Origin: a virus
Reading direction: 5' to 3' (one strand)
IMG/VR virus record: IMGVR_UViG_3300031706_001093
Coordinates: 1 to 22,691 of that record
DNA: 22,691 bases
Under the pieces are notes generated by a model. That model saw only the letters and a list, made by a program, of their open reading frames with translations, had not been told where the DNA came from and ran no database searches. This document shows, in pieces, positions 1 through 20,396 of the stretch (positions are counted from its first letter, which is position 1; each line of letters begins with the position of its first letter). A program made the position numbers and the translations under genes.

Positions 1-1534
1 TAAGAGATGGAGCAGTTTTTATAGAACTGTTCCATTTTTCTTTTTTGTAATCTAAATTTCTAATCATTTGTTGGAACTCGTCATGCAAATTAACTCGCGA
101 AAGGAATATTTTACCTAGAACACATTTGTTACTAGGGTTCCAATTCATTCCTGCTGCAAGACAATTTACTCCATCGTCGTCTTGTAAATAGTCTATAAAG
201 TTTTTATTATATATACTAGAAAAATAAACTCCTTGCGTTTGAAGATTGCCTAGGTTAGTAAATTCAGAAACATAAGACGTTTCGCTTATCTTGCGCCAAT
301 ATTCTGTATCGTTCCTGTGACTTAACGCATAGTGCATACTTACAAAATGTGCCCAATAGTTAAATAACTCTTCACAAACAATGTTAAATTCATCGCGATC
401 CCATTGACTGTATGCATTACTTCTTACTAGCATTTTTGTTAAGCTAGTTGCAAACTCGTGTGTAATAGCAAGACCTGATGATTCTAATGGTTCAACAAAC
501 GCAGCACTTAGGCCAATAGCAACTACATTTTTAACCCATAATTTTTCGTGTATACCTGTACGTATTTTAATATCTTTAAACTCACAATCAGTAGTACTAT
601 ACCCTTTTTGTTGTAGATGAGATATTAACTCACTTTTAGCATTTTCAGGAGTTACAAATTCGTCACTATATACATAACCAGCTCCTACCCTATTCCATAA
701 TGGTATATTCCAAATCCATCCATTGTCCATTGCAGTGCAATCAGTTACACTAGTTAACTGGGACTCTTTATCAGTATACTGTACCCTAGTTGCCCAAGCT
801 CTGTTATTTGGCAATATATTAGAATAATCATTAAATGGAACACCTAATGTTTCGCCCAATAATAAACTTTTAAACCCGGTGCAATCAACAAATAAATCGG
901 CTGTGACTATTCTATCATTTGTTAATTCTAATTCTTTTATACCTGCGTTATCTGTGTTAATTTTTTGTACTTCGGCACATATGTATTCAACTCCTAACTT
1001 TTTACAAAAAGTGTCTCTTAACCACGCACCAAACATAGTTGCATCAAAATGAAATGCAGTATCATCAAAAAAATTAAAATTGTCTAACATAGGATTATGT
1101 GTATCAATTTTATTTTGTGTTACTAATGCCATTTGTGGATACAAGCAGTCGGCATAATCTTTTACAGGAGTATCGGGATATAGCATTTTTTTAATAAACC
1201 AATCTTCTCTATTATGTATGTTGCCTTGGTCGCTAGTGCGTCCAAACGGATAGTACCAAGATCCGTAATCCTTTTTATAAAAATCATTAAATTTTATTGC
1301 AAGTTTATAAGAAGCGTTAGCATTTGTAATAAGATCCTTGTCAGTAATGCCTACTAGTCGCATCCAAGCTCGAATACCTCCTATAGTACTTTCACCTACG
1401 CCTACAGTAGGTATGTTAGGACTTTCTATAACTTTAATATTGACGTTTTCTAATTGTGAAGCAAGTGTAGCCGCAGTCATCCAGCCAGAACTACCGCCTC
1501 CTACTATTACAATATCTTTAACGTTTGTGGTCAT
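1..1534 (-). CDS. Flavin-dependent tryptophan-type halogenase (hal1), 3' end outside window
   Basis: The reading frame is open from ATG at 1534 down to base 1 (511 codons) with no stop. This is already about full family length, so little of the C-terminus is missing. The N-terminus has an FAD-binding GGGSSGW loop (residues 12-18), followed by GVGEST (45-50), which is typical of the family. The catalytic lysine matches K77 (SYKLA). WIWNIP (273-278) is the WxWxIP signature. EPLESSG (348-354) carries the catalytic glutamate E351 and the chloride-site residues. Enzymes of this family use FADH2, O2 and chloride or bromide to halogenate tryptophan or other electron-rich aromatics, and need a separate flavin reductase; none is visible here. 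The start overlaps the end of the upstream unknown gene by 17 bases, with AGGA just upstream, so translation is probably coupled. The substrate is unknown. Confidence 0.9.
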   Translation of the reverse strand, partial: MTTNVKDIVIVGGGSSGWMTAATLASQLENVNIKVIESPNIPTVGVGESTIGGIRAWMRLVGITDKDLITNANASYKLAIKFNDFYKKDYGSWYYPFGRTSDQGNIHNREDWFIKKMLYPDTPVKDYADCLYPQMALVTQNKIDTHNPMLDNFNFFDDTAFHFDATMFGAWLRDTFCKKLGVEYICAEVQKINTDNAGIKELELTNDRIVTADLFVDCTGFKSLLLGETLGVPFNDYSNILPNNRAWATRVQYTDKESQLTSVTDCTAMDNGWIWNIPLWNRVGAGYVYSDEFVTPENAKSELISHLQQKGYSTTDCEFKDIKIRTGIHEKLWVKNVVAIGLSAAFVEPLESSGLAITHEFATSLTKMLVRSNAYSQWDRDEFNIVCEELFNYWAHFVSMHYALSHRNDTEYWRKISETSYVSEFTNLGNLQTQGVYFSSIYNKNFIDYLQDDDGVNCLAAGMNWNPSNKCVLGKIFLSRVNLHDEFQQMIRNLDYKKEKWNSSIKTAPSL

Positions 1535-2252
1535 AGGGACATCCTTTTGCTTTTGCTAAACTTTTATATCTTTCTTTTAATGGTCTAAATGTATTCTTGT
1601 TACGTATAGTGTTACATAACCTAATATCGTCCCAAGGACATTGTTGCTCTTGTAGTTTTACAGCACTGTCACTATAAAATTTAAAATATGCGATAGCATC
1701 ACCCTTTTTAATTTTAATACTGTCTTTATTATTTTTACATTCAAATACTATTTCAGCAGGCCTAGTCCATTTTGAAATATCAAACTCTCCTGGCATTAGC
1801 GTAGTTTTTTGTGTAAACTCATTGTAGTGCATAAATGCGGGTAACATTTGCATTGTCATAGAAGTGTCTGTTTGAAATATGTTAAGCCAATCTATACCTA
1901 TCATAGGATATGGACTATTGCCTCGTTGATCATCAAATAAGAATCTTGTATCTATTAATAGTTCAAATTGTTCTTGGCTTAGATTAGGACAGTTTATACT
2001 GATATTGTTTGTGTCGTTGTTCACGTCAATATTAATTGTTAGATCGTATGGAGCACAAAATACAAACATATTTTTTAAAAAATCAGTATGTGCTGGACAC
2101 TTTAGTACTATGTTACCTTTACGTTCTGCAATATAATTTTTTTGTAGACTGCTAATAGTTTTAAAATCTAAATCTAATAACGAATCAAAACATTCTGGAT
2201 GGTCGATGTCCCAGTCGCTACTGGTAATAAACGACCAATTAACTAATGCCAT
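1518..2252 (-). CDS. Unknown protein between two halogenase genes
   Basis: This 244-residue protein is not one I recognise with confidence. It has no membrane segment or signal peptide. Its composition suggests a mostly beta fold in the first two thirds. A conserved-looking block near residues 160-195 (a KWTRP stretch, a charged turn, then GDAIAYFKF) is followed by a basic, helical tail. Several Cys-Pro or Cys-Ala-Pro pairs occur (KCPAH, CAPYD, NCPNL, GCPYD). No HxD...H oxygenase triad is evident. Its start overlaps the end of hal2 by 14 bases and its end overlaps the start of hal1 by 17, so all three are probably translated together. The context suggests an accessory factor or substrate of the halogenases, but that is inference only. 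Confidence 0.75.
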   Translation of the reverse strand: MALVNWSFITSSDWDIDHPECFDSLLDLDFKTISSLQKNYIAERKGNIVLKCPAHTDFLKNMFVFCAPYDLTINIDVNNDTNNISINCPNLSQEQFELLIDTRFLFDDQRGNSPYPMIGIDWLNIFQTDTSMTMQMLPAFMHYNEFTQKTTLMPGEFDISKWTRPAEIVFECKNNKDSIKIKKGDAIAYFKFYSDSAVKLQEQQCPWDDIRLCNTIRNKNTFRPLKERYKSLAKAKGCPYDHKR

Positions 2253-3717
2253 ACTTTTTCATTTCTCGTAATCTATCTATTTCTGTACTATGATGATGGC
2301 CGTCTAAATGACGATATTTTTCGTACTGTACATAACTAGTTAATATAATTTCTCGTGCATCATCGGAAGATATGTCTAAATTTTTCTTAGACAATTCATA
2401 GCCTAACTGTATTAAAAACATACTCCAATTAGGGCCACCAAACATTGTATTATATTTTGCAGACCACGGCAATGTTATATTAGGATCTTTAAAATCTTCA
2501 AGGTAACTTTGCATTTCTTCACTAGGCACAAATGTGTCATTAACAAAATTCCAAAACGGTGTTGTTCTAGAATTATTTGCATAGTGCATTGCTACAAAGT
2601 TTATACAATTTTCAAACACAATTTTCATTTGAATATTAAAATAATCAACTTCATTGGCTGTATAATGATTTTCGTTAAGAATTCCATTTAACTGTCCAAT
2701 AGCATATGTCATTAAGCCAACACCGGTACTTTCTAAAGGCTCAATAAACCCGGCACTAAGTCCTATACTAACTATATTTTCGTGCCATTGATCTTCGTTA
2801 TAATAAGGGTCCCAATTGATAATTTTAAGGTTATCTTTTGAAATTCTATTATCCCAATACTTTACAAAATAATCTTTTGCTGTGTCTACGTCAGTAATAT
2901 TTCTGTTGAACAACATACCACTACCAATTCTATTTTGAACTGGGATTTTCCAAATCCATCCATGATCTACAGCATCACATTTTACATACGGGGTGAGTTC
3001 ATTGTGTTGATCATTATATGTTACGTGTCCTGCTACAGCGGTGTTTACAAACAGTCGATCACTAAGATCAACTCGTTTACATTCCTTGCGTAGTACTTGT
3101 TTAAATCCAGTACAGTCAACAAACAAGTCGCTATTAATTACGTTACCGTTATTTAAAGTTAAGAAATTAATTCCGCCTCGATCAGTGTACGAAATATCAG
3201 TTACTTCGCTATTAATTAGTGTTATTTTATTTTCTAAATGCTTTCTTAAATATTTTACTACCTTACCACAGTCAACATGTAGTGCATAGCGTTCTATGTC
3301 AGTCATGTCTACACTATTATGAAGTATGCTACTATCGTAAAAAGCAAGCAGATATTTTTTAAACTCTAAATCTTGAGTGTGTGTATATAAATCAAATAAC
3401 TTCCATTTTGGATCAATTTCGTCATTGCCTTTATAAAACGGATGCCAAATATCTTCTCCTGGCGTTTGCCAATTTGTAAACAATATTCCTGACTTATACG
3501 CACTATCAAATTCCATAAACCAATCTGCAACTGGTAATCCTGCTTCTTCAAGAAAAGGCAGAAATGTTAGTATCGTTGCTTCACCTACACCAATTGGATC
3601 AGGTACTTCTTTATCAACTACTGTTATATTAATATGCGGTTGTCTATGACTAAGATATGCCGCAGCTAACCATCCAGCAGTGCCGCCACCAACAATAGTA
3701 AGTGTTTTAACTTTCAT
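2239..3717 (-). CDS. Flavin-dependent tryptophan-type halogenase (hal2)
   Basis: A complete 492-residue halogenase. The FAD loop GGGTAGW is at residues 10-16 and GVGEAT at 43-48. The catalytic lysine is K75 (AYKSG), WIWKIP is at 254-259, and EPLESTG at 326-332 gives the catalytic glutamate E329 and the S-T-G chloride-site residues. All key residues of the PrnA/RebH type are present, so an active enzyme is expected. ATG at 3717 is preceded by AAGGA about eight bases upstream. The gene heads a minus-strand operon with the unknown gene and hal1, and is divergent from the oxygenase gene starting at 3757. Only 39 bases separate the two starts. Substrate and regiochemistry cannot be read from sequence. 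Confidence 0.92.
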   Translation of the reverse strand: MKVKTLTIVGGGTAGWLAAAYLSHRQPHINITVVDKEVPDPIGVGEATILTFLPFLEEAGLPVADWFMEFDSAYKSGILFTNWQTPGEDIWHPFYKGNDEIDPKWKLFDLYTHTQDLEFKKYLLAFYDSSILHNSVDMTDIERYALHVDCGKVVKYLRKHLENKITLINSEVTDISYTDRGGINFLTLNNGNVINSDLFVDCTGFKQVLRKECKRVDLSDRLFVNTAVAGHVTYNDQHNELTPYVKCDAVDHGWIWKIPVQNRIGSGMLFNRNITDVDTAKDYFVKYWDNRISKDNLKIINWDPYYNEDQWHENIVSIGLSAGFIEPLESTGVGLMTYAIGQLNGILNENHYTANEVDYFNIQMKIVFENCINFVAMHYANNSRTTPFWNFVNDTFVPSEEMQSYLEDFKDPNITLPWSAKYNTMFGGPNWSMFLIQLGYELSKKNLDISSDDAREIILTSYVQYEKYRHLDGHHHSTEIDRLREMKKYGIS

Positions 3718-3743
3718 ATATCATTTCCTTTATACAATGTACT

Positions 3744-3751
3744 TATAAATA
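3744..3751 (+). promoter_or_regulatory. T4-type late promoter, exact TATAAATA, 5 bases before ATG
   Basis: An exact T4 late promoter consensus TATAAATA lies in the 39-base gap between divergent genes, with only TCACT between it and the ATG at 3757. In T4, late transcription starts roughly six bases after this element, so the first transcribed base would be at or within a few bases of the start codon. There is no room for a ribosome binding site and none is seen. The same arrangement recurs at 7684. Confidence 0.75.
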
Positions 3752-3756
3752 TCACT

Positions 3757-4320
3757 ATGCTTATAGTTGATGATCTGATATCAAAACCGTACCAAGAAGA
3801 AATAAAACAAACACTTCTTGATATAAAATTTCCATGGGGATTTATTCCTGATGTAACGTCTGCAGGATCGGATATAAATGCTCCTGCACTAATACATAAT
3901 TATAGATGGGGCGGTAATACACATAGTCCTTATTTTGATATCATTGAACCTATTGCAAGACTAGGAGCAAAGGCAGTAGACTACGAATATAATAGTGTCA
4001 TACAAGCAAGAAGTTTTTTACAATTTCCTTTAAATACTAAATTTTTTAATAAAGAAACAGATTTATTACATATAGATCTTGACTATAGTCACCTAGTGGT
4101 GTTATACTATGTTTTAGACTCAGACGGCGACACACTAATTACAAATAAAACGTTTGATCAAGAAAAGAAACATTATTTAGATATACCTGCTGAGGAAGAC
4201 ATAGTATTGCGAGTTACACCAAAACAAGGCCGCGCAGTAATATTTGATGGTAAGTATTATCATACAGCTCGACAACCCAAAGATAACCTACGCTGTATTA
4301 TAAATTTTAATATAGAGTGA
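3757..4320 (+). CDS. 2OG-Fe(II) oxygenase family protein, HxD type
   Basis: A 187-residue protein with an N-terminal FPW motif (residues 25-27) shared with the genes at 4324 and 9925. The iron-binding HxD is H105-I-D107, the distal histidine is H169 (YYHTA), and R179, ten residues later, would hold the 2-oxoglutarate carboxylate. The double-stranded beta-helix core runs from about residue 80 to the end. Such enzymes hydroxylate or otherwise oxidise a substrate while converting 2-oxoglutarate and O2 to succinate and CO2; the substrate is unknown. It is the first gene of a four-gene plus-strand run of related oxygenases. The start is fixed by alignment with its neighbour and by the absence of another in-frame start nearby. 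Confidence 0.82.
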   Translation: MLIVDDLISKPYQEEIKQTLLDIKFPWGFIPDVTSAGSDINAPALIHNYRWGGNTHSPYFDIIEPIARLGAKAVDYEYNSVIQARSFLQFPLNTKFFNKETDLLHIDLDYSHLVVLYYVLDSDGDTLITNKTFDQEKKHYLDIPAEEDIVLRVTPKQGRAVIFDGKYYHTARQPKDNLRCIINFNIE

Positions 4321-4323
4321 CAG

Positions 4324-4935
4324 ATGATAGAATTTGAAGTATTAGATAACTTTTTGCCCAACACTGAGTTTAAGCAATTACAACAATTATTGCTTTCTCC
4401 AGAGTTTCCTTGGTTTTATACCGAACATGTGTCTTTAGATCCTATTGATAATAATATTAAAAATAAAGAAGCAGTAGAAACTGACGGGTATGCACATCTA
4501 TTTTATGATAGAGATGAAAAATTAGAAGCATATACAAATTCAGCAATGGTTAATTTTAATTTACACATTGAACGTCATTTAGGAATAACTGCACAGGATA
4601 TTATTAGATCACGAGCAAGTGTAAAGCATCCTAAATTAGGTTATACAGTTGAAAATTATAATTTGCCACACGTTGATTATTTTACTCCACACTTATCATT
4701 AATATATTATATAAACGACTCAGACGGTGCAACTAGGGTGTTTAATGAAAAATTTACACCAGTGCCTAGCGGTAATAATTTAGGAATAAGTTATGATTCT
4801 TTTACAGTAAAAACATGTGTTGAACCAAAAGCAAATAGACTATTAGTAATAAACGGCTTACAATACCATACAGCAAGCAATCCTATTAATAGTACACGTA
4901 GAGTAATTATAAACATAAACACGGAGCAAAAATGA
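4324..4935 (+). CDS. 2OG-Fe(II) oxygenase family protein, HxD type
   Basis: A 203-residue paralogue of the preceding gene with the same layout. FPWFY is at residues 28-32, HxD is H116-V-D118, the distal histidine is H182 (QYHTA), and R192 lies ten residues further on. Both proteins have a YYxxxSDGxT-like strand after the HxD motif. Only three bases separate it from the stop of the previous gene, and its own stop overlaps the next start by four bases (ATGA), so it sits in one operon. The substrate is unknown. The tandem similar-but-diverged copies suggest old duplication followed by specialisation. Confidence 0.82.
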   Translation: MIEFEVLDNFLPNTEFKQLQQLLLSPEFPWFYTEHVSLDPIDNNIKNKEAVETDGYAHLFYDRDEKLEAYTNSAMVNFNLHIERHLGITAQDIIRSRASVKHPKLGYTVENYNLPHVDYFTPHLSLIYYINDSDGATRVFNEKFTPVPSGNNLGISYDSFTVKTCVEPKANRLLVINGLQYHTASNPINSTRRVIININTEQK

Positions 4936-5582
4936 AAATAGACTATGCATTTCCTATTCCTATTGTAACTCTTAGTGTTGATGCGTTAGTAGTACAAGAT
5001 ACTCTTGATAGAGTAAAAAAATATATAGAAACTGACATGCCGGGTAGTAAGAATGAAACAAATAAACTGCTTACTACATATTATCATAACAACAAAAATT
5101 TCTTAGGAAAAATTAACGCTATTCCGTTGCTAACAGAACTTAATCAACATATTAGAGGGTTTTTAGAACTTAGAGGAATGAACCCAGAATGTTATGTTGA
5201 AATAACAAGCTGGTTACAATTAAATCAACCTGGCTCATTATTTAATAGACACGATCATTATGGTGCTATTGTAAGCGGTGTGTTTTATTTAGAAGTTCCT
5301 AAAAATGGCGGCAAATTAAAATTCCACAACCCTTTAGAAGCAAGACGTGCAACAGACGTATTTTTTGATAGAATACGTAAAGAAGAAAATCAATACAATT
5401 ACGATTATATAGAATACGATCCAAAAGCAGGCGAACTAATTATGTTTGAATCGTGGTTACAGCATAGTGTAGAAATTAATAATTCTAATCAAGATAGATT
5501 GTCAGTTTCATTTAATGTTTGGGCAGATGTAGATGACAAAGCTAAGAAATTAAGAGATGAAAGAGGCGATTATGGATCCTAG
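4932..5582 (+). CDS. 2OG-Fe(II) oxygenase-like protein, HxH type (TIGR02466/PF13759-like)
   Basis: A 216-residue protein of the putative 2OG-Fe(II) oxygenase family common in marine phages. H107-D-H109 is followed by the family's SGVFYL strand and a GGKLKFHNP turn. The distal histidine is H178 (LQHSVE) and R189 lies in a DRLSVSFN strand. The second ligand position holds His instead of the usual Asp, as in its paralogues at 5572, 7697 and 19824. Metal and 2-oxoglutarate use are inferred from family membership, not shown. The start ATG overlaps the previous stop in ATGA. The C-terminal 20 residues are charged and probably helical. Confidence 0.75.
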   Translation: MKIDYAFPIPIVTLSVDALVVQDTLDRVKKYIETDMPGSKNETNKLLTTYYHNNKNFLGKINAIPLLTELNQHIRGFLELRGMNPECYVEITSWLQLNQPGSLFNRHDHYGAIVSGVFYLEVPKNGGKLKFHNPLEARRATDVFFDRIRKEENQYNYDYIEYDPKAGELIMFESWLQHSVEINNSNQDRLSVSFNVWADVDDKAKKLRDERGDYGS

Positions 5583-6156
5583 TGTAGAAATGTGGTTTCC
5601 TGTATCTATATATAAAGATACTAACATTATATCACAAGAAGAAAATATGAAATTGTATAACCGTAGTTTAGAACTTCAAAAAACTATCCCAAACGGTGGT
5701 AAAGAATGGTACGGTGATACATATAATACTCATGATACGTTTGATTTAACTCGAGATAGTACGTTTGATTATTTATTATCTCAAATTGAGGCACATGTAC
5801 ACAATTATGCAGAAATGCATGGATCTACTTCTAAGTATAAACTGTCAGGTGCCTGGTTAAACGTTAATGCCGAAGGCACATTCCAAGAATTTCATACACA
5901 CAACAATGCAATTTTTAGTTGCGTATATTGGGTTGCGGCTCCTGAAGGTTCTGGAAAACTAATTTTTGAAGATCCAAAAGAACCTGATATGTTACAAATA
6001 AGAGACATTAAAGAACGTAATAGTTTAAGTTTTACACGTATTGGATACAAGGCAGAAGAACGCAAACTGTTAATTTTTAGATCTTATCTTAGACATATGG
6101 TAGAACCATGTAAAAATACTACACCTAGAGTTAGTATAGCGGTAAACTTTAGCTAA
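5572..6156 (+). CDS. 2OG-Fe(II) oxygenase-like protein, HxH type
   Basis: Third or fourth oxygenase of the tandem run, 194 residues from ATG at 5572. An in-frame ATG at 5557 would add five residues, but AGAGG at 5562-5566 is well placed only for 5572, so I prefer that start. It overlaps the previous gene by 11 bases. H108-T-H110 is followed by a CVYW strand and GSGKLIFEDP, the distal histidine is H175 (LRHMVE), and R186 is in PRVSIAVNF, matching the layout of the gene at 4932. It is the last gene before a convergent halogenase. The 41-base gap to that gene's end shows no clear terminator hairpin. The substrate is unknown. Confidence 0.75.
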   Translation: MDPSVEMWFPVSIYKDTNIISQEENMKLYNRSLELQKTIPNGGKEWYGDTYNTHDTFDLTRDSTFDYLLSQIEAHVHNYAEMHGSTSKYKLSGAWLNVNAEGTFQEFHTHNNAIFSCVYWVAAPEGSGKLIFEDPKEPDMLQIRDIKERNSLSFTRIGYKAEERKLLIFRSYLRHMVEPCKNTTPRVSIAVNFS

Positions 6157-6197
6157 TGTATGATGAATTTTTTAAAATATTTAGATTAAATCAGGTA

Positions 6198-7658
6198 CTA
6201 TTCTTTAGCCCTTAATCTTGTTAAAAACTCTTTATGCCCAATCATCACTTTATTCATAGATAACACATTTCTTTCGCGTTCAATGTTGTTAGCTAGTTGA
6301 TGATTTTCAGGACTTTGCATATTATATTCTCGCAATAAATTATCTCGATCAAAAATTTCTAATCCTGCCAATACTTGCATGTAATGAGGATCTTTAAATA
6401 GTGCATAACTCCCTGATGATATAAAATCTTCTAATATTGGCAAATTATATTTCCAACGTTCTATACATTCTTTTAGACTATCTGGAATAGGCATATTTTT
6501 TACATCTTTCCAAAATTGAGTGTTATCTTTATTTGTAATGTAATGTAAAATAACAAAGTCTCTAATATTATGTAACATTATTTCAACATGTTCGTTATAA
6601 TTGTTTATGCTGTTTTGTGAATAATTAGGCAAACGGTGCATTAATAAAAATGCTTGATTAATACTAGTGCCAATACTTGTTGCTTCGAGCGGCTCTACAA
6701 AACTAGCACTAAGACCTATTGCACAACAATTATTAATCCATACCTTGTCTAAAGCACCAGGATCAAAGTTTATTTGTTTTCCTACTGTTATTTCTTTACC
6801 TAATAATTTTTCTACTTCGTCTTTGGCTTGATCTGCACTTATATAATCACTATCAAAAATGTAACCATTCCCGTTACGGTCATAAACTGGTATAGTAAAC
6901 ATCCAACCGTAGTCCATTGCCCTAGCAGTTGTCCACAAATCAATTTCTTCAGTTGGATCTGTTGGGAATGTAATAGCAGATTTCATTTTAAGCCATTTAC
7001 TATAGCTATTCCATTTTGCTCCTAGCTGTCCTATTAGTAATTTTTTAAATCCAGTGCAGTCAATATAAAAATCACTGTTGTAATTTGTTTTTTCACCAAT
7101 TACATAGTCGATGTCACCAGTTGAATCTAAAATTACATCAGTAATTTCGTCGTCTATAATGGTTATGCCTTTTCTCTCAGCAATGTAACTAAGATAATTG
7201 TTTAATTTTGTTGTATTAAAATGGAATTGATTATACGGACTGGCGTTATCTAGATGCCATTCGTCGACGGTGTTTTCCCAAGTACCAAGAGGGTTTAACA
7301 ATTTGTTTGACATATTGTGTGATATAATTTTTGCGTAATATGTTCTATACTGTCCGTTAATTATTTCATGCTCTGGACCAATACTATGTAAGTAATCCTT
7401 GTCATGCCAGTTTTTAAACATTATACCGCTTTTAAATGTTGCATCACAATTTTTAATAAGGTCTTGATACGTTATTCCAAGATAGTTCATAAATTCGTTC
7501 CAGTGTTCGGTACTACCTTCACCAACACCTATGATGCCTATCTTTTTTGAACGAATTATTTGTATTTTTTTACTAGGAAACCTAGTTTTAAGTATTAGTG
7601 CTGATACAAAGCCGGCTGTGCCTCCGCCGACTACTGAAATTTTTTCTAGTTTATTCAA
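6198..7658 (-). CDS. Flavin-dependent tryptophan-type halogenase (hal3), TTG start
   Basis: A complete 486-residue halogenase. The FAD loop is GGGTAGF (residues 11-17), GVGEGS is at 44-49, and the catalytic lysine is K76 (TFKSG). The WxWxIP signature is changed to WMFTIP (252-257), with Phe for the second Trp. EPLEATS (322-328) keeps the catalytic glutamate E325 but differs from the ESTG form of hal1 and hal2. No in-frame ATG lies near the N-terminus. The TTG at 7658 sits eight bases after AAGGA, so a TTG start is likely. It is divergent from the oxygenase gene at 7697, with 38 bases between the two starts. Activity is likely but less certain than for hal2. Confidence 0.88.
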   Translation of the reverse strand: MNKLEKISVVGGGTAGFVSALILKTRFPSKKIQIIRSKKIGIIGVGEGSTEHWNEFMNYLGITYQDLIKNCDATFKSGIMFKNWHDKDYLHSIGPEHEIINGQYRTYYAKIISHNMSNKLLNPLGTWENTVDEWHLDNASPYNQFHFNTTKLNNYLSYIAERKGITIIDDEITDVILDSTGDIDYVIGEKTNYNSDFYIDCTGFKKLLIGQLGAKWNSYSKWLKMKSAITFPTDPTEEIDLWTTARAMDYGWMFTIPVYDRNGNGYIFDSDYISADQAKDEVEKLLGKEITVGKQINFDPGALDKVWINNCCAIGLSASFVEPLEATSIGTSINQAFLLMHRLPNYSQNSINNYNEHVEIMLHNIRDFVILHYITNKDNTQFWKDVKNMPIPDSLKECIERWKYNLPILEDFISSGSYALFKDPHYMQVLAGLEIFDRDNLLREYNMQSPENHQLANNIERERNVLSMNKVMIGHKEFLTRLRAKE

Positions 7659-7683
7659 GACTTGCTTCCTTAAAAATTTAACT

Positions 7684-7691
7684 TATAAATA
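7684..7691 (+). promoter_or_regulatory. T4-type late promoter, exact TATAAATA, 5 bases before ATG
   Basis: A second exact TATAAATA in a halogenase/oxygenase divergent gap, again preceded by ACT and followed by ATC, and again with five bases (TCTAC) before ATG at 7697. The 13-base core (ACTTATAAATATC) is identical to that at 3741-3753. No ribosome binding site fits between element and ATG, which predicts a leaderless or near-leaderless late mRNA. Confidence 0.75.
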
Positions 7692-7696
7692 TCTAC

Positions 7697-8323
7697 ATGA
7701 ACAATATACATTTAGAATATAATCCGATGTTTGTTACTGCTTCTTATGTTACTTATGTTGATAACATTGATCTTAGTAAGATAACTGAACATGTAAATTA
7801 TTTAGACAAACATGTTCCAAACGTGCGCCGCCAACGGAGTAATGCTGGAGGGTTTCAAACTGAGGACATCCATCCATTGCCTTATGATTTTGAAGAAACC
7901 GGAAAATTATTTGACCAATGGATAAAACCGTCAGTTGGTACCATATTAGATAGTTGGAAAGTACCGCATGAGATTGACAATTTTAGTTATTGGTATAATT
8001 TAAATACAAAATATACATATAACAGAGAACACATCCATGCAAACTCATTAGTTAGCGGCGTCTATTATGTAAAGGTGCCCAGCGATAGCGGAAAAATTGT
8101 TTTTAATAGAAGTGTTAATGAATATGACCGTATGCATAACATTCAAAGCATTTATGCAGCTAATGATACTCAGGTAGACCACCCTGAAACAAATAACTCA
8201 CACTGGTATGTTCCTAAAGAAGGTATGCTTGTGTTATTTCCAAGTCACGTTAGTCATTATGTAGAACAAAATGTTACTAACGATGAAAGCGATGGTCGTA
8301 TTTCAATTAGTTTTAATTTTTAA
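7697..8323 (+). CDS. 2OG-Fe(II) oxygenase-like protein, HxH type
   Basis: A single-gene plus-strand unit between two minus-strand halogenases, 208 residues. H112-I-H114 leads into SGVYYVKVP and SGKIVFNR. The distal histidine is probably H187 (SHYVE; H184 is nearby) and R201 is in GRISISFNF at the C-terminus. The same fold and motif order occur at 4932 and 5572. Another in-frame ATG lies at residue 11, but the first fits the family's N-terminal length better. It is expected to be transcribed from the late promoter at 7684. The substrate is unknown; pairing with a halogenase is the only functional clue. Confidence 0.75.
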   Translation: MNNIHLEYNPMFVTASYVTYVDNIDLSKITEHVNYLDKHVPNVRRQRSNAGGFQTEDIHPLPYDFEETGKLFDQWIKPSVGTILDSWKVPHEIDNFSYWYNLNTKYTYNREHIHANSLVSGVYYVKVPSDSGKIVFNRSVNEYDRMHNIQSIYAANDTQVDHPETNNSHWYVPKEGMLVLFPSHVSHYVEQNVTNDESDGRISISFNF

Positions 8324-8379
8324 ATCTTAATTTTTGTAATTCTGATAGACTTAAACAATTTTGTGTATTGTAATTCCAT

Positions 8380-9906
8380 TCATTTACGTATTCCTCTAAA
8401 ATACTCTATGAATTCTTTATATGTATAACAATACTGGGTATCGTCTCGCCATTGGTGTTGTAATTCGTAATAGCTTTCTTGTGTAATTTCATAAAGGTCG
8501 CCTTCTTTAAACTGTATGTCAATTTCGGCTCCAGCAATGTCTTTGTTAAGTACGTTAATGCCTTCCATAACGTAACTATACAACGGCCATCCAGCCGCGC
8601 CTTGGTAATGCGGGAAGTCGTTAAATGTAGGTGTTTTTGATTTTGCCATAGCTAACAGTTCTTTAACAAACTCTGTTTGAGTTGCTCCTGTTTTTATGTA
8701 CTTCCAAAATTCACTATCGTCTCGGCCGCCCATGTAGTGCAATACTAGGAAGTCTTTTACATCGTCGTATAATTTTCGTGTTCTTTTATTATAAATTGAC
8801 ATACTTCCTTCGTTTATTGTTTCGTCAAAGGTAGGTTTAATGTATTCTAAAAATAAATTGTTTGCTTGAACAATAGTAGAATGAATACTAGTTGCTTCTA
8901 GTGGTTCTAAGAATGCACTACTAAGTCCAATGGTAACACAGTTCTTGATCCATGCTGATTCCTGTCGTCCTGAATCAAATTTTATTATTCTAATAGGATC
9001 AATCTCTTGACCTAGTATAGTTTCAATTTCTTCCTGCGCCTTTTCTGGAGTAGTAAAGTTATCGTCGTATACATATCCGCAACCTTTTCGATCTAGTAAC
9101 GGTATTTGCCACATCCATCCAGCCTTCTGAGCCCAGGCGGTTGTATAAGGTTCTGGTATCTCGCCTTCTTTGTACTTTAAGTGGAATGGCATTCCGGTAT
9201 TAAGGGGTAAGTTCTCTTTAAAACTTACCCATTTACTCGGTAAGTGTTTCATAATTACTTGATTAAACCCTGAGCAATCAATAAAAAAGTCGCCCTCGAC
9301 TACGCTATGATCTGCTAATACTAAATTTTTTACAAAACCTTGTTCGTTAAGATTTACATTAATAACTTCAGAATCAATATGTTTAGTGTTAGGTCTTTTT
9401 AGCGCAACCTTTTTAAAATACTGCCCAGCAAGATGTGCGTCTATATGATACGCATGATGGGTGTCAATAAACTGTTTTGTAAATTTATTAAAGTTACTAA
9501 GTTCATGATGGATCCAGTACCCGCATTTTGAAAGTTTCAACATGTCGTTGCGTTGAAGTTTATCTAATCCAAAATTAAACAGACAGTCGGGGATGGCACT
9601 AGTTGTGTGCGTACCGTCAATAGGGCCTATGTAATAATCATCAATATTATTTGTCCACCCTTTATGTTTGATTGCATACTTTAATGTTGCTCCAGTTTCT
9701 TTTATAAAGTCGTGTTGGTCGCATCCATAATTTGTAGCCCAGTTCATTAGTACATCAGTAAAGTGGCCAGTTGTACTTTCGCCGACACCGACTACTCCAA
9801 TTTTGCTACTGTCTATTATAGTAAATTCGTGTGCAAGATGTCGAGAGCTGGCAATTAATGCAGTAACCCATCCAGCAGTGCCACCGCCTACTATTACAAT
9901 TTTCAT
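8380..9906 (-). CDS. Flavin-dependent tryptophan-type halogenase (hal4)
   Basis: A complete 508-residue halogenase. GGGTAGW is at residues 7-13 and GVGEST at 40-45. The catalytic lysine is K76 (TLKYA), WMWQIP is at 264-269, and EPLEATS at 334-340 holds the catalytic glutamate E337. The PLEATSI form groups it with hal3 rather than hal1/hal2. ATG at 9906 is preceded by AAGGAA about ten bases upstream. It follows the minus-strand oxygenase gene with 18 bases between, so the two form a halogenase-oxygenase operon. It converges with the oxygenase at 7697-8323, and the 56-base gap shows no obvious terminator. Confidence 0.92.
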   Translation of the reverse strand: MKIVIVGGGTAGWVTALIASSRHLAHEFTIIDSSKIGVVGVGESTTGHFTDVLMNWATNYGCDQHDFIKETGATLKYAIKHKGWTNNIDDYYIGPIDGTHTTSAIPDCLFNFGLDKLQRNDMLKLSKCGYWIHHELSNFNKFTKQFIDTHHAYHIDAHLAGQYFKKVALKRPNTKHIDSEVINVNLNEQGFVKNLVLADHSVVEGDFFIDCSGFNQVIMKHLPSKWVSFKENLPLNTGMPFHLKYKEGEIPEPYTTAWAQKAGWMWQIPLLDRKGCGYVYDDNFTTPEKAQEEIETILGQEIDPIRIIKFDSGRQESAWIKNCVTIGLSSAFLEPLEATSIHSTIVQANNLFLEYIKPTFDETINEGSMSIYNKRTRKLYDDVKDFLVLHYMGGRDDSEFWKYIKTGATQTEFVKELLAMAKSKTPTFNDFPHYQGAAGWPLYSYVMEGINVLNKDIAGAEIDIQFKEGDLYEITQESYYELQHQWRDDTQYCYTYKEFIEYFRGIRK

Positions 9907-9924
9907 ATTATTTAAAATTCCTTA

Positions 9925-10530
9925 TTAGGCATATGTGAATACTACTACCACTCGTCTCTCGTGTAGTGCAGGATATTTGTGTGCATGATAACATCCTTTA
10001 AAATGCGACACTTGATATTTTTGAGCAGGCATTTCGTGCCATGCATCAAGTTCGTAATCCCATACCAGTGTCGGGGCTTCAGGATTATCAGTTAGATACA
10101 TTAGCCAATTATAATGATGCCAAGTATGGTCGTTGTGTGGCACAGTTATAGCATCTTCACCATTGTACCAATTACAATTTACATTGGCTCTAAAAATATT
10201 ATGATACGTCTTGTTGTTACTTTTCATCCACCTATCAAAAATACTAAAGAAAAATTCAGCATAGCCGTCACTAAAATGATCTATAGGTCTATCAGTGTGT
10301 TTTATATGTTCTTCTTCGGTGCGTCTTAATAACGAATGACTTAAGAAAGAAGTATTAACATATGTACCTTCCTTAATTTTTTCTGGAGTGTCTGCGGGAG
10401 GAATAAAAGTTGTTTGCTTACTTATATAATACCACGGAAAATGAAATCCTAAAATATCATTTTCTATAATTGCTTGTTCGTGTTGAGTTAGCAATGCGGA
10501 TGAATATGTTGTGTCTGTTGTTAAACTCAT
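9925..10530 (-). CDS. 2OG-Fe(II) oxygenase family protein, HxD type
   Basis: A 201-residue protein from ATG at 10530. The frame extends upstream to a TTG at 10578, but that has no ribosome binding site. Starting at 10530 puts the FPWYY motif (31-35) at the same distance from the N-terminus as in the gene at 4324. HxD is H132-N-D134, the distal histidine is H182 (YHAHK), and R192 lies ten residues later. It is the first gene of the operon that includes hal4. A late-promoter-like GTTAAATA ends five bases before the ATG, the same geometry as at 3744 and 7684, though the match is weaker. The substrate is unknown. Confidence 0.8.
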   Translation of the reverse strand: MSLTTDTTYSSALLTQHEQAIIENDILGFHFPWYYISKQTTFIPPADTPEKIKEGTYVNTSFLSHSLLRRTEEEHIKHTDRPIDHFSDGYAEFFFSIFDRWMKSNNKTYHNIFRANVNCNWYNGEDAITVPHNDHTWHHYNWLMYLTDNPEAPTLVWDYELDAWHEMPAQKYQVSHFKGCYHAHKYPALHERRVVVVFTYA

Positions 10531-10535
10531 ATGTA

Positions 10536-10543
10536 TATTTAAC
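10536..10543 (-). promoter_or_regulatory. Possible late promoter (GTTAAATA), 5 bases before ATG
   Basis: On the minus strand GTTAAATA matches six of eight consensus positions and lies exactly five bases before the ATG at 10530, the same spacing as the two exact elements. It is the weakest of the candidates. The remaining divergent gap up to 10635 has no exact TATAAATA on either strand; a TATATAAG near 10610 is a poor match. Confidence 0.35.
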
Positions 10544-10635
10544 CTAGACTCATTTTCAAATGCATAATTACGAATCAAAAAAAATGTATAAGTAATGTAC
10601 GTAGATAAGTATATATAAGCTAACCGGAGGATAAC

Positions 10636-11256
10636 ATGAATACAGAAAATTCAGGATCGTTTACAAATCCTGCTATAGAGCGTACAGAACCTGACACGCC
10701 AGTAAACACTCAACCAACTTTACAAGTTACATCTATAAATCATAGTGATTTATTTACCGAAGAAGATTGTGTTACTATTAATGAAAACACAATTGACGAA
10801 CTTTGGATGCCTATAAAAGTAATAGGCGACGAAGAATTGCACAAAGGATTTAGACAAAAACTAAGAGGCGATGTTGCTGCTTTTCCTTTTGATAAGATTA
10901 GAGAAATAACAAAAGCCGCTAACGATCAAATTTATAATTTTGATCTGTTAGGTATTATTGATCAAGACTTCCCGCAAGTTTACAAATATACTGAAGATTG
11001 TTATTACAATTACCATATAGATATAAATTTATTAGCACCAACAAGAAAAATGACTTGGATAGTAAATTTATCTGACGAAACAGATTACGAAGGCGGTGAC
11101 ATTACGTTTATGAATACTGACACTAGTGCAGTAACTACAAAACGTAAAGGGTCAATATTAATCTTTCCATCCTTTATACCTTTCCAAATTAATAAAATTA
11201 CAAAGGGCGAAAAGAAATTAATTATAGGACATGTACACGGGGCAGTGTTCCGTTGA
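10636..11256 (+). CDS. Prolyl-4-hydroxylase-like 2OG oxygenase, probably degenerate active site
   Basis: A 206-residue protein starting six bases after GGAGG (10626-10630). The core looks like the prolyl-4-hydroxylase branch: H127-I-D129, then a TWIVNLSD strand and YEGGDI (151-156), and a C-terminal FPS...GHVHGAVFR block. Aligned to the next gene, the distal iron-binding histidine is replaced by F183 and the 2-oxoglutarate-binding arginine by K193. Two of the four key residues are therefore lost and catalysis is doubtful. The first 30 residues are Pro/Thr/Asn-rich and probably disordered. Its end overlaps the start of the next, intact, paralogue by four bases, which suggests the pair may work together. 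Confidence 0.7.
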   Translation: MNTENSGSFTNPAIERTEPDTPVNTQPTLQVTSINHSDLFTEEDCVTINENTIDELWMPIKVIGDEELHKGFRQKLRGDVAAFPFDKIREITKAANDQIYNFDLLGIIDQDFPQVYKYTEDCYYNYHIDINLLAPTRKMTWIVNLSDETDYEGGDITFMNTDTSAVTTKRKGSILIFPSFIPFQINKITKGEKKLIIGHVHGAVFR

Positions 11257-12044
11257 TTTTAGATTATGATTACTGGTATTTTAAGTCTGCAATAAGTCCA
11301 GATGTGTGCGATGCTATTGTTGCACAGGGTCAGGCAAAGATGAAAAAACAAGAAGAACTATTTGGCGAAGCAGTCTCTGTAGCAACCACGGGCGGATGGC
11401 AACACAAAGGTTCTGACGGGAAGGAACAAGACGCCGTTAATGATAAAACTATAGAAGAATTAAAAAATCAAGGAGTAGACCCAAACAGTCAATATGTTAG
11501 GGATTCACATATCACTTGGTTAGATGACGAACCTTTATTTGATATGGTTCAAACATTTGTTAAAGAAGCAAATACACAAGCAGGATGGAATTTTGATTGG
11601 GATTATACTGAAGAATTTCAATTTACAAAATATGGCCCAGGACAGTTTTACGGATGGCATGTTGACATGGGATCTAAACCTTATAGACAGTTTGATGAAA
11701 CTACAGATAAATGGAAATTAAATCCTGACGGGTCGTCGCTACTAGATACATTTGGTAACCCAATGACTGAAGACAATCTTGCAACAACAAATCCTAGTTT
11801 GTTTGGAAAAGTAAGAAAGCTAAGTGTAACAATTAGTTTAAATAGACCTGAAGAATACGAAGGCGGAAATTTAAAATTTGATTTTGGACCACACGCTGAT
11901 GAAAGATTTCATGAATGTAAAGAAATTAGACCACAAGGTTCTGTTGTAGTATTTCCGTCACACATATATCATCAAGTAACTCCGGTTACACAAGGTACAA
12001 GATATAGCTTAGTTGCTTGGAATTTAGGATATCCATTTAGATGA
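11253..12044 (+). CDS. Prolyl-4-hydroxylase-like 2OG-Fe(II) oxygenase, TTG start
   Basis: A 263-residue protein with the complete set H136-V-D138, H240 (IYHQV) and R250 (GTRYS), plus YEGGNLKF at 202-209. An extra stretch of about 40 residues, including a short proline- and glycine-bearing loop, lies between HxD and the next core strand (about 143-186). The frame begins with TTG at 11253 inside TTGA, overlapping the previous stop. The next in-frame ATG, at residue 30, would cut into the domain, so TTG is preferred. The stop overlaps the next start in ATGA. Enzymes of this branch hydroxylate proline or related residues in proteins or peptides; the target here is unknown. Confidence 0.82.
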   Translation: MILDYDYWYFKSAISPDVCDAIVAQGQAKMKKQEELFGEAVSVATTGGWQHKGSDGKEQDAVNDKTIEELKNQGVDPNSQYVRDSHITWLDDEPLFDMVQTFVKEANTQAGWNFDWDYTEEFQFTKYGPGQFYGWHVDMGSKPYRQFDETTDKWKLNPDGSSLLDTFGNPMTEDNLATTNPSLFGKVRKLSVTISLNRPEEYEGGNLKFDFGPHADERFHECKEIRPQGSVVVFPSHIYHQVTPVTQGTRYSLVAWNLGYPFR

Positions 12045-12685
12045 CAACTCCGGACTTTTTCAAAAACAATTTTTATATTGACTGTAAACAAATAATACCA
12101 GCTGACCTTTGTAATGTAGTTACAAAGTATTGTTTAATGCGAGAAGAAAACTTTAACGAACCAGAGCCCGAAGATGAAGGCCAAGTTCCATTTGCACACA
12201 GTGTGTATGCAGATACATTAATGGAAACATTAGAATATTTTCTTCTTCCTCACATGGAAGCAAGTACAGGGCTGTCACTTTGTCCTACATATAGTTATTA
12301 TAGAGTTTACCGCCCTGGACAAGAACTAGAGCGACATAAAGATAGAGAGAGTTGCGAAGTAAGTACTTCTGTGTGCTTTGGCACACAGTACAATGATGTT
12401 GATAAAGATTATCATTGGAGTATGTATGTTGATAAAGACTCAAATCATACACCTAAGTTAGGAAATTTTATTAGTGCAAATAATCTAGGAACACCAGTTC
12501 AGCAAACTCCGGGCGACATATTAATATACAGAGGTGTTGATATCGAACATTGGAGAGATAAATTTGTAGCTGGGCTAAATAGTTATCATGTACAAGGATT
12601 CTTTCACTACATAGACAAAGACGGGCCGTATTATCCAGAATGGATATATGATAAACGTCCTCGCCTAGGCTATAAAGAATCTTAA
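12041..12685 (+). CDS. 2OG-Fe(II) oxygenase-like protein
   Basis: A 214-residue protein. A YYRVYRPGQ strand leads to H99-K-D101, then a core ending in PGDILIYRG, a distal histidine H170 (IEHWR), and a YHVQGFFHYID strand near 182-192. The order matches 2OG-Fe(II) oxygenases of the type often annotated in phages and bacteria. A clear 2OG-binding Arg at the usual spacing is not obvious, so co-substrate binding is less certain. It is the last gene of a three-gene run with ATGA/TTGA overlaps. The C-terminal tail is charged and tyrosine-rich. Confidence 0.72.
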   Translation: MTTPDFFKNNFYIDCKQIIPADLCNVVTKYCLMREENFNEPEPEDEGQVPFAHSVYADTLMETLEYFLLPHMEASTGLSLCPTYSYYRVYRPGQELERHKDRESCEVSTSVCFGTQYNDVDKDYHWSMYVDKDSNHTPKLGNFISANNLGTPVQQTPGDILIYRGVDIEHWRDKFVAGLNSYHVQGFFHYIDKDGPYYPEWIYDKRPRLGYKES

Positions 12686-12689
12686 TTTG

Positions 12690-12697
12690 TATAAATA
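12690..12697 (+). promoter_or_regulatory. T4-type late promoter, exact TATAAATA
   Basis: An exact TATAAATA in the 36-base gap before the tail assembly chaperone. The expected start near 12703 would give a leader of about 19 bases containing AAGGAG (12712-12717), which is the normal T4 late arrangement and contrasts with the leaderless layout at 3744 and 7684. Confidence 0.75.
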
Positions 12698-12721: not shown

Positions 12722-13162
12722 ATGGCTATTAAGAATGTTTCCATAAGCAATGTTGTTGCCGTACAAAATGCTTGTTATGTAATGGGTGTTGAAGAAGTAT
12801 GGTGCCAGATTAAATTTACAGATTGTGTAAACTTTTGTGAATATATTGCAGATCCCAACTCAGGCGAAGCGTTATCAAGAGAACTTTACACAAGGTTTCA
12901 AGACGGCGACTACGGCGAATTAAACCACGGAACCGGCGATCATTATACGCTAATGCCCAAGACTCAAACAGAGTTAGAAGTAGCAGTAAAAGCTACAAGA
13001 ACACAGCGTTTACTAGAATCTGACTGGACAGGATTGCCTGATATGTCTGCAACAATGACCTCTGTACAACGGTCGGCATGGTCTACATATAGACAAGCAT
13101 TACGTGACGTTCCGGCTCAAACTAGATTCCCATGGGACCCAGACTGGCCCACATCACCATAA
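12722..13162 (+). CDS. Phage tail assembly chaperone (PF16778-like)
   Basis: A 146-residue protein. The C-terminal half (about 85-146) has the signature order of the phage tail assembly chaperone domain: RTQRLLESDWTGLPD, then QRSAWSTYRQALRD and a closing FPWDPDWP. The N-terminal half (about 1-80) is a small domain I do not recognise, with several cysteines. Members of this family are found beside tail fibre genes and are thought to assist fibre assembly. A strong AAGGAG and a late promoter precede it, and groES follows 72 bases on. The placement with chaperonins and fibre proteins fits a virion-assembly role. Confidence 0.8.
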   Translation: MAIKNVSISNVVAVQNACYVMGVEEVWCQIKFTDCVNFCEYIADPNSGEALSRELYTRFQDGDYGELNHGTGDHYTLMPKTQTELEVAVKATRTQRLLESDWTGLPDMSATMTSVQRSAWSTYRQALRDVPAQTRFPWDPDWPTSP

Positions 13163-13194: not shown

Positions 13195-13202
13195 TATAAA
13201 TA
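13195..13202 (+). promoter_or_regulatory. T4-type late promoter, exact TATAAATA, before groES
   Basis: An exact TATAAATA in the 72-base gap after the tail chaperone gene. The expected start is near 13208, giving a leader of about 27 bases that contains AAGGAG at 13222-13227. This places the chaperonin operon under late control. Confidence 0.75.
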
Positions 13203-13234: not shown

Positions 13235-15216
<1,982 letters not shown>

Positions 15217-19215: not shown

Positions 19216-19469
19216 CGCGAGTCTGCTACTAATTTATCTAATTTATTCCGTAGCTGACCTAACCCTTTAACATGTTCTTGAATAGAACTAGGTTTGATTT
19301 CACCCGGAGTTGACGAACTATGCAGATCATTAATTATTTTTATTTGTAACTTGTATTCAATTAATAACTTTTCAAAATCTTGTTTTATATTAGTATTAAC
19401 AATTTTTTTAACTGCATTTTCGTAGTTGCGTAGATCTTTTTGTACTTTAGGGCTGTCTAGTAAATTCAT
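19212..19469 (-). CDS. Small helical protein, unknown function
   Basis: An 85-residue, charged protein with no recognisable domain. Residues 8-50 (KVQKDLRNYENAVKK onward) have the heptad-like pattern of a long amphipathic helix or coiled coil, and a second helix covers 62-85. A Ser/Pro break lies at 51-61. ATG at 19469 overlaps the previous stop by one base (TAATG), so it is translated with the cupin-like gene. It is the last gene of the minus-strand block, and its TAA stop overlaps the opposite TAA of the fibre gene within a single TTAA. Confidence 0.65.
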   Translation of the reverse strand: MNLLDSPKVQKDLRNYENAVKKIVNTNIKQDFEKLLIEYKLQIKIINDLHSSSTPGEIKPSSIQEHVKGLGQLRNKLDKLVADSR

Positions 19470-19822
19470 TAATAGCTTTCTTTCTTAACAACAATAAAAT
19501 GATCGTCATTAGTTCCGTTATTAACTTCTGCTATACTGCCAGGCACAGTGCATTGTATTGCACACGGAACAAGGGGCTTTGCAGTGAACACAAACCCTTC
19601 AGATGCTTCTCTTTCAAACACCTGTCCTGTTGCAGTATCTATCCATCTAAAAACAAACGAGCCATTATTAACAAACCAAGACTTTTCAGTTTTATTATTA
19701 AACCAAAAGTCTGTTTTTGATAATTTGTCAAATACTAAAATTTTCCCACCATACGATTCTTCAGCAGTCCAAGTTATTTCATAGCCAAACGGAGTGTGTT
19801 TTATATTATCTTTATCTTGCAT
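19469..19822 (-). CDS. Cupin-like small protein lacking metal ligands
   Basis: A 117-residue protein from ATG at 19822. A second in-frame ATG at 19834 would add four residues, but AGGA lies four bases before 19822, which is therefore preferred. The strand pattern resembles single-domain cupins related to sugar-phosphate isomerases: a KTEKSWFVNNGSFVFRW stretch (44-60) where the first metal-binding motif would lie, and GFVFTAKPLVPCAIQCTV (76-93) for the second. The usual histidines are absent, so a metal-dependent reaction is unlikely. It sits between an oxygenase gene and a small helical gene in one operon. The fold call is tentative. Confidence 0.5.
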   Translation of the reverse strand: MQDKDNIKHTPFGYEITWTAEESYGGKILVFDKLSKTDFWFNNKTEKSWFVNNGSFVFRWIDTATGQVFEREASEGFVFTAKPLVPCAIQCTVPGSIAEVNNGTNDDHFIVVKKESY

Positions 19823-19823
19823 A

Positions 19824-20396
19824 TTATCCTGCATCTAAAATTATATTACCGCTTATAGATATACGAGTATCGTCGCTATTTAAAAAAGGGTAAACGTTAT
19901 GTGGTAACTTTGAAGGAAAAAACAATATTTCACCTTCATTTTCTTTTGTTAAACTAAACCTCTTATTACTAATATTTCCAATTATATTAGTGTACGTAAA
20001 TTCAAAATTTCCTTGATAGTTATTATCATCTATCTCAGGAATTTTAATCCATATACTGTAACTATATATTCCTTGGTGTACATGATTAGGGATAAACTCG
20101 CCTGCTTTTTGATGATTTATCCATTGCTTTTCAATTCGGTAAGGTAAAGATTTTGTTAATATACCTATACGTCCTAGTCCTGGAAAGTCGTTCTCGTATC
20201 GTTTAACAAGAGTTGCTATGTATGTATTTAATTGTTGCGCAGTATCTGTAAGCCTAAAATGTGTTGCAACACCGCTATTTGTTATCCCAGAACTTACTAC
20301 TTCGGAACAATTAAGAGATTCTTCTAATAAATCGTTATAAAGGTCTTGTGGTATTTTTTCTTTGTAAAATCCAAAATTTTCTAAAAACTGTGTCAT
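19824..20396 (-). CDS. 2OG-Fe(II) oxygenase-like protein, HxH type
   Basis: A 190-residue protein with H105-V-H107 (FIPNHVHQG), a YSYSIWIKIP strand, GEILFFPSKLPHNV with H166, and R178 in TRISISGNI. This is the same order and HxH form as at 4932, 5572 and 7697, but far from that block and in the opposite orientation. The start overlaps the Nudix stop in ATGA. Being directly downstream of core tail genes, it may be expressed with them. The substrate is unknown. Confidence 0.72.
   Translation of the reverse strand: MTQFLENFGFYKEKIPQDLYNDLLEESLNCSEVVSSGITNSGVATHFRLTDTAQQLNTYIATLVKRYENDFPGLGRIGILTKSLPYRIEKQWINHQKAGEFIPNHVHQGIYSYSIWIKIPEIDDNNYQGNFEFTYTNIIGNISNKRFSLTKENEGEILFFPSKLPHNVYPFLNSDDTRISISGNIILDAG

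Follow-up and report, generated by a model that had tools for sequence, protein, structure and literature searches.

What would a virus do with four flavin halogenases and nine members of the 2-oxoglutarate (2OG)-Fe(II) oxygenase superfamily lying side by side? We asked this of a 22,691-base virus fragment from IMG/VR (record IMGVR_UViG_3300031706_001093; the whole stretch is called the window here), in which four PF04820 halogenases (hal1 to hal4), nine oxygenase-superfamily genes (o3 to o11) and one unassigned gene, x2, occupy bases 1-12,685. We favor, with a probability of roughly 0.58, the reading that this block forms a module, expressed late, for the post-translational maturation of glycine-rich receptor-binding proteins, that is, the tips of tail fibers. 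We observed the gene content, the conserved gene order, the active-site residues of the halogenases, the promoter boxes, the linkage in relatives and a residue bias; the substrate, the modified residues and the benefit of the module are what we infer from them. The genes of the block are:

2..1534, minus strand: hal1, flavin halogenase of the VirX1 type, truncated at the window edge (PF04820, 349 bits)
1518..2252, minus strand: x2, conserved protein encoded between hal1 and hal2 (phrog_17480)
2239..3717, minus strand: hal2, flavin halogenase (PF04820, 288 bits; K75/E329 invariant in 22/22 orthologues)
3757..4320, plus strand: o3, 2OG-oxygenase family (phrog_274, weak PF13640 match below cut-off; HxD...H...R kept)
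4324..4935, plus strand: o4, 2OG-oxygenase family (phrog_274, PF13640 E = 2.4e-4, below cut-off; HxD...H...R kept)
4932..5582, plus strand: o5, 2OG-Fe(II) oxygenase (PF13759, 88 bits; HxH...H...R as in the solved member 3BVC)
5557..6156, plus strand: o6, 2OG-Fe(II) oxygenase (PF13759, 70.9 bits)
6198..7658, minus strand: hal3, flavin halogenase with variant motifs WMFTIP and EPLEATS (PF04820, 339 bits; K76/E325 invariant in 23/23 orthologues)
7697..8323, plus strand: o7, 2OG-Fe(II) oxygenase (PF13759, 76.5 bits; PDB 3BVC)
8380..9906, minus strand: hal4, flavin halogenase (PF04820, 310 bits; K76/E337 invariant in 33/33 orthologues)
9925..10578, minus strand: o8, 2OG-oxygenase family, o3/o4 group (phrog_274; profile match to o4, probability 97)
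10636..11256, plus strand: o9, 2OG-oxygenase relative with an incomplete iron triad (PF13640, 33.8 bits; related to o10, probability 98.7)
11253..12044, plus strand: o10, prolyl-4-hydroxylase-like 2OG oxygenase, module core (PF13640, 55.5 bits)
12041..12685, plus strand: o11, probable 2OG oxygenase (phrog_2954, E = 2.5e-41; HxD...H kept)

These assignments bear out the original prediction of four flavin halogenases and nine 2OG-type genes in this stretch, with evidence of uneven strength for the nine, and the gaps at 3718-3756, 7659-7696 and 10579-10635 separate the three divergent halogenase/oxygenase units that it had described.

The link to a substrate comes from relatives of this phage. 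In four of them (G001, G002, G024 and G041), exactly three paralogous glycine-rich open reading frames (ORFs) stand directly after hal1; their products are ~353-382 amino acids (aa) long with 30% glycine and match PF21722 or phrog_2295, and they are the only glycine-rich ORFs among the 114 of the 152.8-kb G041. The model of one glycine-rich protein, a low-confidence model that gives a hint only, had the Pam3 fiber as its best fold match (E = 4.6e-5); a PDB sequence search with the protein gave no match. The Pam3 fiber has a glycine-rich receptor-binding domain and needs a Tfa-type chaperone (PMC9608196), and a chaperone of this type, tfa, is what the block here ends in. Of 18 complete genomes of cultured phages that encode a halogenase, 10 have a PF21722 match no more than 2 kb from one; random rotation gave a mean of 0.95 and reached 10 in 0 of 20,000 trials. 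All 10 have a VirX1-type halogenase at that place, and single hal3/hal4-type genes lie mostly elsewhere. The same neighborhood was found around o10/o11 in phages without a halogenase in the locus, with a glycine-rich gene within 2 kb in 5/5 examined (Mosig, the podophage HTVC023P, S-SM1, S-SSM5 and S-RSM4; product of the chance probabilities, 2.5e-7), and among IMG/VR o10 loci with enough upstream sequence such a gene lies within 6 kb in 76/77 (median ~1 kb). Since this link holds without a halogenase, the core would be the oxygenases together with the glycine-rich receptor-binding protein and, judged by these comparisons, the halogenases are an addition to that core which was multiplied in this lineage. 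We rejected hal1 as an essential part of the module, since some contigs without hal1 still keep the glycine-rich trio. The claim that the block stands beside late virion genes is thereby refined: the position holds and can be narrowed to the tail-fiber region, and the linked genes in relatives are those of glycine-rich receptor-binding proteins specifically.

Beyond the trio, the relatives carry a fiber with an S74 chaperone and then giant fibers with chitin-binding-type modules. The enzymes might modify these other tail-fiber proteins (the giant CBM5/12 fibers or the S74-chaperone fiber) and not the glycine-rich tips, given that fibers of 1,800-3,400 aa and the S74 fiber are encoded just past the trio. 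We regard this as rather unlikely, since the oxygenase core and the glycine-rich genes occur together even in HTVC023P, which is not a T4-like myophage, and the residue bias described next was found in the glycine-rich part (the only part measured). At one locus (L147:3535-17243), the giant fibers are 2,724 and 1,829 aa long, contain several CBM5/12 carbohydrate-binding modules and lie near the trio.

Were the glycine-rich proteins substrates of the halogenases, one would expect them to retain ring residues open to halogenation. Among cultured phages, these proteins contained more Trp, Tyr and His where a halogenase is present. We then turned to IMG/VR loci, clustered at 80% identity, and compared 27 that have a halogenase with 43 that lack one; the two sets came from different queries. 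In the glycine-rich regions, His made up 1.17% of residues at loci with a halogenase and 0.57% at those without (p = 2e-7); Tyr (2.57% against 2.08%; p = 0.001) and Trp (0.42% against 0.17%; p = 0.001) were raised as well. Phe, not an expected target of these halogenases, was not raised, and Pro and Asn were not different. When each halogenase locus was paired with its nearest halogenase-free relative (o10 at least 60% identical), His was higher with the halogenase in 12/12 pairs (p = 5e-4). We take the His bias as suggestive of a halogenation target, and metal binding is a possible alternative reason for it.

The order of the block is itself conserved. Gene order and orientation are the same in 26 IMG/VR contigs (a few of them near-duplicates), in which median identities of the orthologues are ~44-72%. 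Ten of the 14 neighboring gene pairs are kept in every contig having both genes (e.g., o9-o10, 24/24; o10-o11, 25/25; hal3-o7, 20/20), and the others are kept in 12/14, 21/23 (x2-hal2), 18/19 and 17/18. The E-values and this conserved order exclude a chance origin of the block. A co-inherited gene set in a phage, in the tail-fiber region and with late-promoter boxes, is in line with the dedicated system that the original prediction had proposed, and its claim survives the search for relatives in which the genes would be scattered and unlinked. The window tail sheath is closest to those of the jumbo phages PA5oct, Phosso, Atu_ph07 and SCTP-2 (29-34% identity), and the portal of G041 is ~50% identical to those of the same PA5oct/Phosso/Atu_ph07 group; we used these two proteins for placement since a search for the terminase in G041 gave no match. 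The block belongs to an uncultured marine jumbo-phage lineage related to PA5oct/Phosso/Atu_ph07; no close cultured member was found in the phage collection.

Intergenic gaps inside the block are at most 57 bases (3-57). This bears on the idea that the block makes a halogenated peptide that diffuses away, by a small-molecule pathway or one similar to those of ribosomally synthesized and post-translationally modified peptides; halogenases and 2OG oxygenases are common tailoring enzymes. We find it hardly credible: gaps of this size are too small for a precursor gene, and no non-ribosomal peptide synthetase, polyketide synthase or carrier-protein family was present among the scanned proteins. A precursor peptide within the gaps was rejected for want of space.

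All four halogenases score far above the PF04820 cut-off of 21 bits (288-349 bits) and have the GxGxxG dinucleotide motif, which almost every orthologue shares. The catalytic Lys and Glu, which we take from alignment and PrnA numbering to be the counterparts of PrnA K79 and E346, are invariant in the orthologues of each, including K77/E351 of hal1 (13/13). WxWxIP is present in hal1, hal2 and hal4; hal3 has WMFTIP, with F in 23/23 orthologues, and is classed here just as a variant-motif member of PF04820. Both hal3 and hal4 read EPLEATS where hal1 and hal2 read EPLESxG. The best solved relative of hal1 is VirX1 (PDB 6QGM; E = 5e-102); the reading frame of hal1 is still open at the window edge, and its last residues are absent from the window. 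A tree of 81 sequences placed each of the four halogenases in a deep, well-supported clade of its own, and every one of these clades includes sequences from cultured cyanophages (VirX1 beside hal1; S-SSM7 beside hal2; P-SSM2 and S-H38 beside hal3; S-PM2 and Syn1 beside hal4). On the evidence of this tree they are old paralogues retained together, and we rejected recent duplication. Records of this and related lineages have one to six PF04820 matches. Some relatives also encode shorter (~400 aa), divergent PF04820-like proteins with weak scores (L150:7169-8377; L153:8537-9727), possibly a fifth halogenase-like group.

Annotation of this family as tryptophan halogenase suits a role in auxiliary metabolism, in which a PrnA-like halogenation of free tryptophan would protect the host by an antibiotic and the oxygenases would draw on 2-oxoglutarate in nitrogen metabolism; roles of this kind have been proposed (PMC9964418, PMC2984593, PMC3037559, PMC9602691). 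This we hold to be very improbable, since VirX1, the best-matching phage enzyme, has an open site and broad substrates (PMC8407142), no other pyrrolnitrin-pathway gene was seen in the window (prnB, prnC and prnD were looked for there), and neither the link to glycine-rich fibers nor four co-inherited clades would be predicted.

Among the oxygenases, the genes at 4932, 5557, 7697, 10636, 11253 and 19824 (a tenth, outside the block) match PF13759 or PF13640 above the curated cut-off, and those at 9925 and 12041 were assigned by PHROG membership and an HxD...H pattern kept in orthologues. By relatedness they form the groups o3/o4/o8, o5/o6/o7 (PF13759) and o9/o10, plus o11. The iron ligands HxD/E (HxH in PF13759)...H and the distal Arg/Lys are kept in o3-o8 and o10. 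The distal His, an iron ligand, is not conserved in o9 and its orthologues, and o9 is probably inactive as an oxygenase. Despite this loss, o9 adjoins o10 in all 24 contigs; it is maybe a structural partner. We rejected the PHROG labels "DNA endonuclease V" (phrog_274) for o3/o4/o8 and "ferrochelatase" (phrog_2954) for o11, as these proteins carry the 2OG-oxygenase iron pattern. The labels denV and ferrochelatase on such proteins recur across many cyanophage records.

When would the block be expressed? The exact T4-type late-promoter box TATAAATA has four copies in the window, all of them in the gaps before o3, o7, tfa and groES:

3744..3751, plus strand: TATAAATA late promoter box, 13 nucleotides (nt) upstream of the o3 ATG
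7684..7691, plus strand: TATAAATA late promoter box, 13 nt upstream of the o7 ATG
12690..12697, plus strand: TATAAATA late promoter box, upstream of tfa
13195..13202, plus strand: TATAAATA late promoter box, upstream of groES

The cyanophage form of the box is NATAAATA (PMC2984593), and it stands 12-16 bases upstream of the ATG in 20/22 divergent o7 orthologues (at 12-13 nt in these), 7/9 of o3 and 5/13 of o4 in first position; the remaining gene classes of the table have no copy at that distance. Upstream of tfa it is present in 18/21 orthologues, farther from the ATG, leaving space for a ribosome site. Since the late-promoter box starts at -13 (PMC2988020), the o3 and o7 mRNAs would begin at the ATG, and we predict them to be leaderless late mRNAs. 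The oxygenase operons appear to be driven by T4-type late promoters. The divergent gaps 3718-3756 and 7659-7696 have ACTTATAAATATC in common, whose plus strand reads as a late promoter; the self-complementary TTATAA core in both might fire in both directions. Another possible target late in infection is the host itself, at its cell surface or in one of its proteins, e.g., to block superinfection: phages are known to alter receptors, and many paralogues could suit many substrates. We consider a host target improbable, as late promoters together with linkage to fiber genes favor the virion.

Maturation of the receptor-binding proteins, the reading we prefer, could proceed as follows. The glycine-rich protein would be made late in infection, and tfa with GroEL/ES would hold it and aid its folding before virion assembly, while several 2OG oxygenases would hydroxylate its side chains. 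The four halogenases, each from a different ancient clade, would halogenate activated aromatic side chains at different sites, most likely His and Tyr and perhaps Trp, with bromide and chloride available from sea water. The modified protein would then join the virion, and the modifications would tune the stability or receptor binding of a tip with a mostly glycine backbone. Extended further, it is an even bet that many marine phages mature their receptor-binding proteins by dedicated hydroxylases and that a large subset also halogenates them, probably at His and Tyr, with virions that carry halogenated adhesins.

Several points weigh against this reading. It rests on genes and sequence comparison, and the chemistry is deduced from these. 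The window is cut inside hal1, before any glycine-rich gene, and the link is seen in relatives; the glycine-rich genes of this phage itself would lie just beyond base 1. Other tail-fiber genes share the region with the block, and the glycine-rich protein model is weak (predicted local distance difference test score, pLDDT, 59.6). In 6/18 cultured halogenase genomes a glycine-rich match is missing or lies at a distance of over 50 kb; the majority of the six have single hal3/hal4-type genes. Enrichment of Tyr and Trp, significant overall, was not significant in the close pairs, and we demoted it as decisive proof; the His bias was not predicted beforehand (that of Trp and Tyr was), and phylogenetic dependence was controlled in part in these statistics. 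Finally, the block has no flavin reductase, which would need to come from the host or from elsewhere in the genome.

We rejected x2 as a flavin reductase or other known enzyme: it has no Pfam or NCBIfam match, is neither a halogenase nor a recognized oxygenase, and its AlphaFold2 model (pLDDT 91) gave weak, dUTPase-like fold matches alone (E at least 2e-3; template modeling score 0.22-0.37). No relatives were found in the bacterial genomes searched. It adjoins hal2 and hal1 nearly always. Downstream of the block lie tfa, GroES, GroEL, fiber-like genes, a subtilase, the tenth oxygenase (near 20 kb, as had been predicted), a nudix gene and the tail sheath, of which four were assigned as:

12722..13162, plus strand: tfa, tail-fiber assembly chaperone (PF16778, 57.5 bits; several phage tail-fiber-assembly families)
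13235..13537, plus strand: GroES (PF00166, 97.8 bits)
13537..15216, plus strand: GroEL (tblastn against phage and bacterial GroEL, identity up to 47%)
19824..20396, minus strand: o12, tenth 2OG oxygenase, outside the block (PF13759, 44.8 bits)

The subtilase-family gene (16734-18317, 527 aa) stands among the fiber genes, has a 1,303-aa relative in G001 (L144) and may encode a virion protein with a protease domain. A small gene at 19469-19834 adjoins the tenth oxygenase and belongs to phrog_7851, labeled cysteine dioxygenase.

Phage halogenases are without an accepted role, and phage 2OG arrays have been read as host metabolism. Published roles for these enzymes, host metabolism or free-tryptophan chemistry, are called speculative (PMC2984593, PMC3037559), as is the antibiotic-protection idea (PMC2984593). 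Earlier work had described halogenases in phages, the in vitro chemistry of VirX1 (PMC8407142), phages with large 2OG sets (PMC9602691, PMC9964418) and glycine-rich adhesins (PMC9608196, PMC12892980); our search of the open-licence literature found no paper linking these enzymes to fiber proteins. What we add is a block of four halogenases conserved in a jumbo lineage, the link of this block and of the wider family to glycine-rich receptor-binding proteins, the bias toward His and the prediction of leaderless late mRNAs. The linkage points to a concrete class of substrates and leads one to expect modified virions in phages that are already cultured. If the reading is true, it would give phage halogenases a testable role, provide a set of candidate protein halogenases, describe a viral protein-halogenation system without known counterpart along with a natural role of VirX1-type enzymes, and mean that host recognition by marine phages involves side chains absent from the genome text.

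How does the block compare with known systems? VirX1 of cyanophage Syn10 (6QGM) is of the same PF04820 type, and hal1 lies inside its clade; the locus in Syn10 also includes another halogenase, some ten genes of oxygenase size and a trio of glycine-rich fiber genes. Unlike Syn10, this phage has four halogenases, with hal2, hal3 and hal4 in separate ancient clades. As VirX1 prefers iodide (PMC8407142), iodination (+125.9) belongs among the expected mass shifts. Ascidian Styelin D (PMC8659048) is a precedent for the combined chemistry, one polypeptide with bromotryptophan and hydroxylated Lys/Arg; unlike the viral system here, it is an animal antimicrobial peptide. The Pam3 gp24/gp25 and S16/PP01 gp38 adhesins share a glycine-rich receptor-binding tip, with a Tfa-type chaperone in Pam3, and the available portions of PMC9608196 and PMC12892980 describe no modification of them by a halogenase or oxygenase. 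The 2OG array of S-SCSM1 (24 genes) resembles ours in its many diverse PF13759/PF13640 genes in one phage; its authors propose host reprogramming, and the available portion of PMC9602691 reports no fiber link. The original prediction had mentioned single halogenase or oxygenase genes in marine T4-like phages, and we correct it here, as dense halogenase/oxygenase sets exist in cultured cyanophages too: in S-CREM1 a single halogenase precedes at least eight genes annotated as 2OG oxygenases, S-RIM44 encodes three halogenases, and Syn9 and Syn10 have two with ~ten oxygenase-size genes. In the arrays of S-RIM44, syn9, P-TIM40 and S-CREM1 the halogenase or halogenases come directly after glycine-rich fiber genes and are followed by a run of 2OG-type genes, an arrangement shared with the relatives of this phage. 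Compared with these cyanophage arrays, the present block belongs to a jumbo lineage and has more halogenases, divergent operons and a fixed order with tfa and GroEL/ES.

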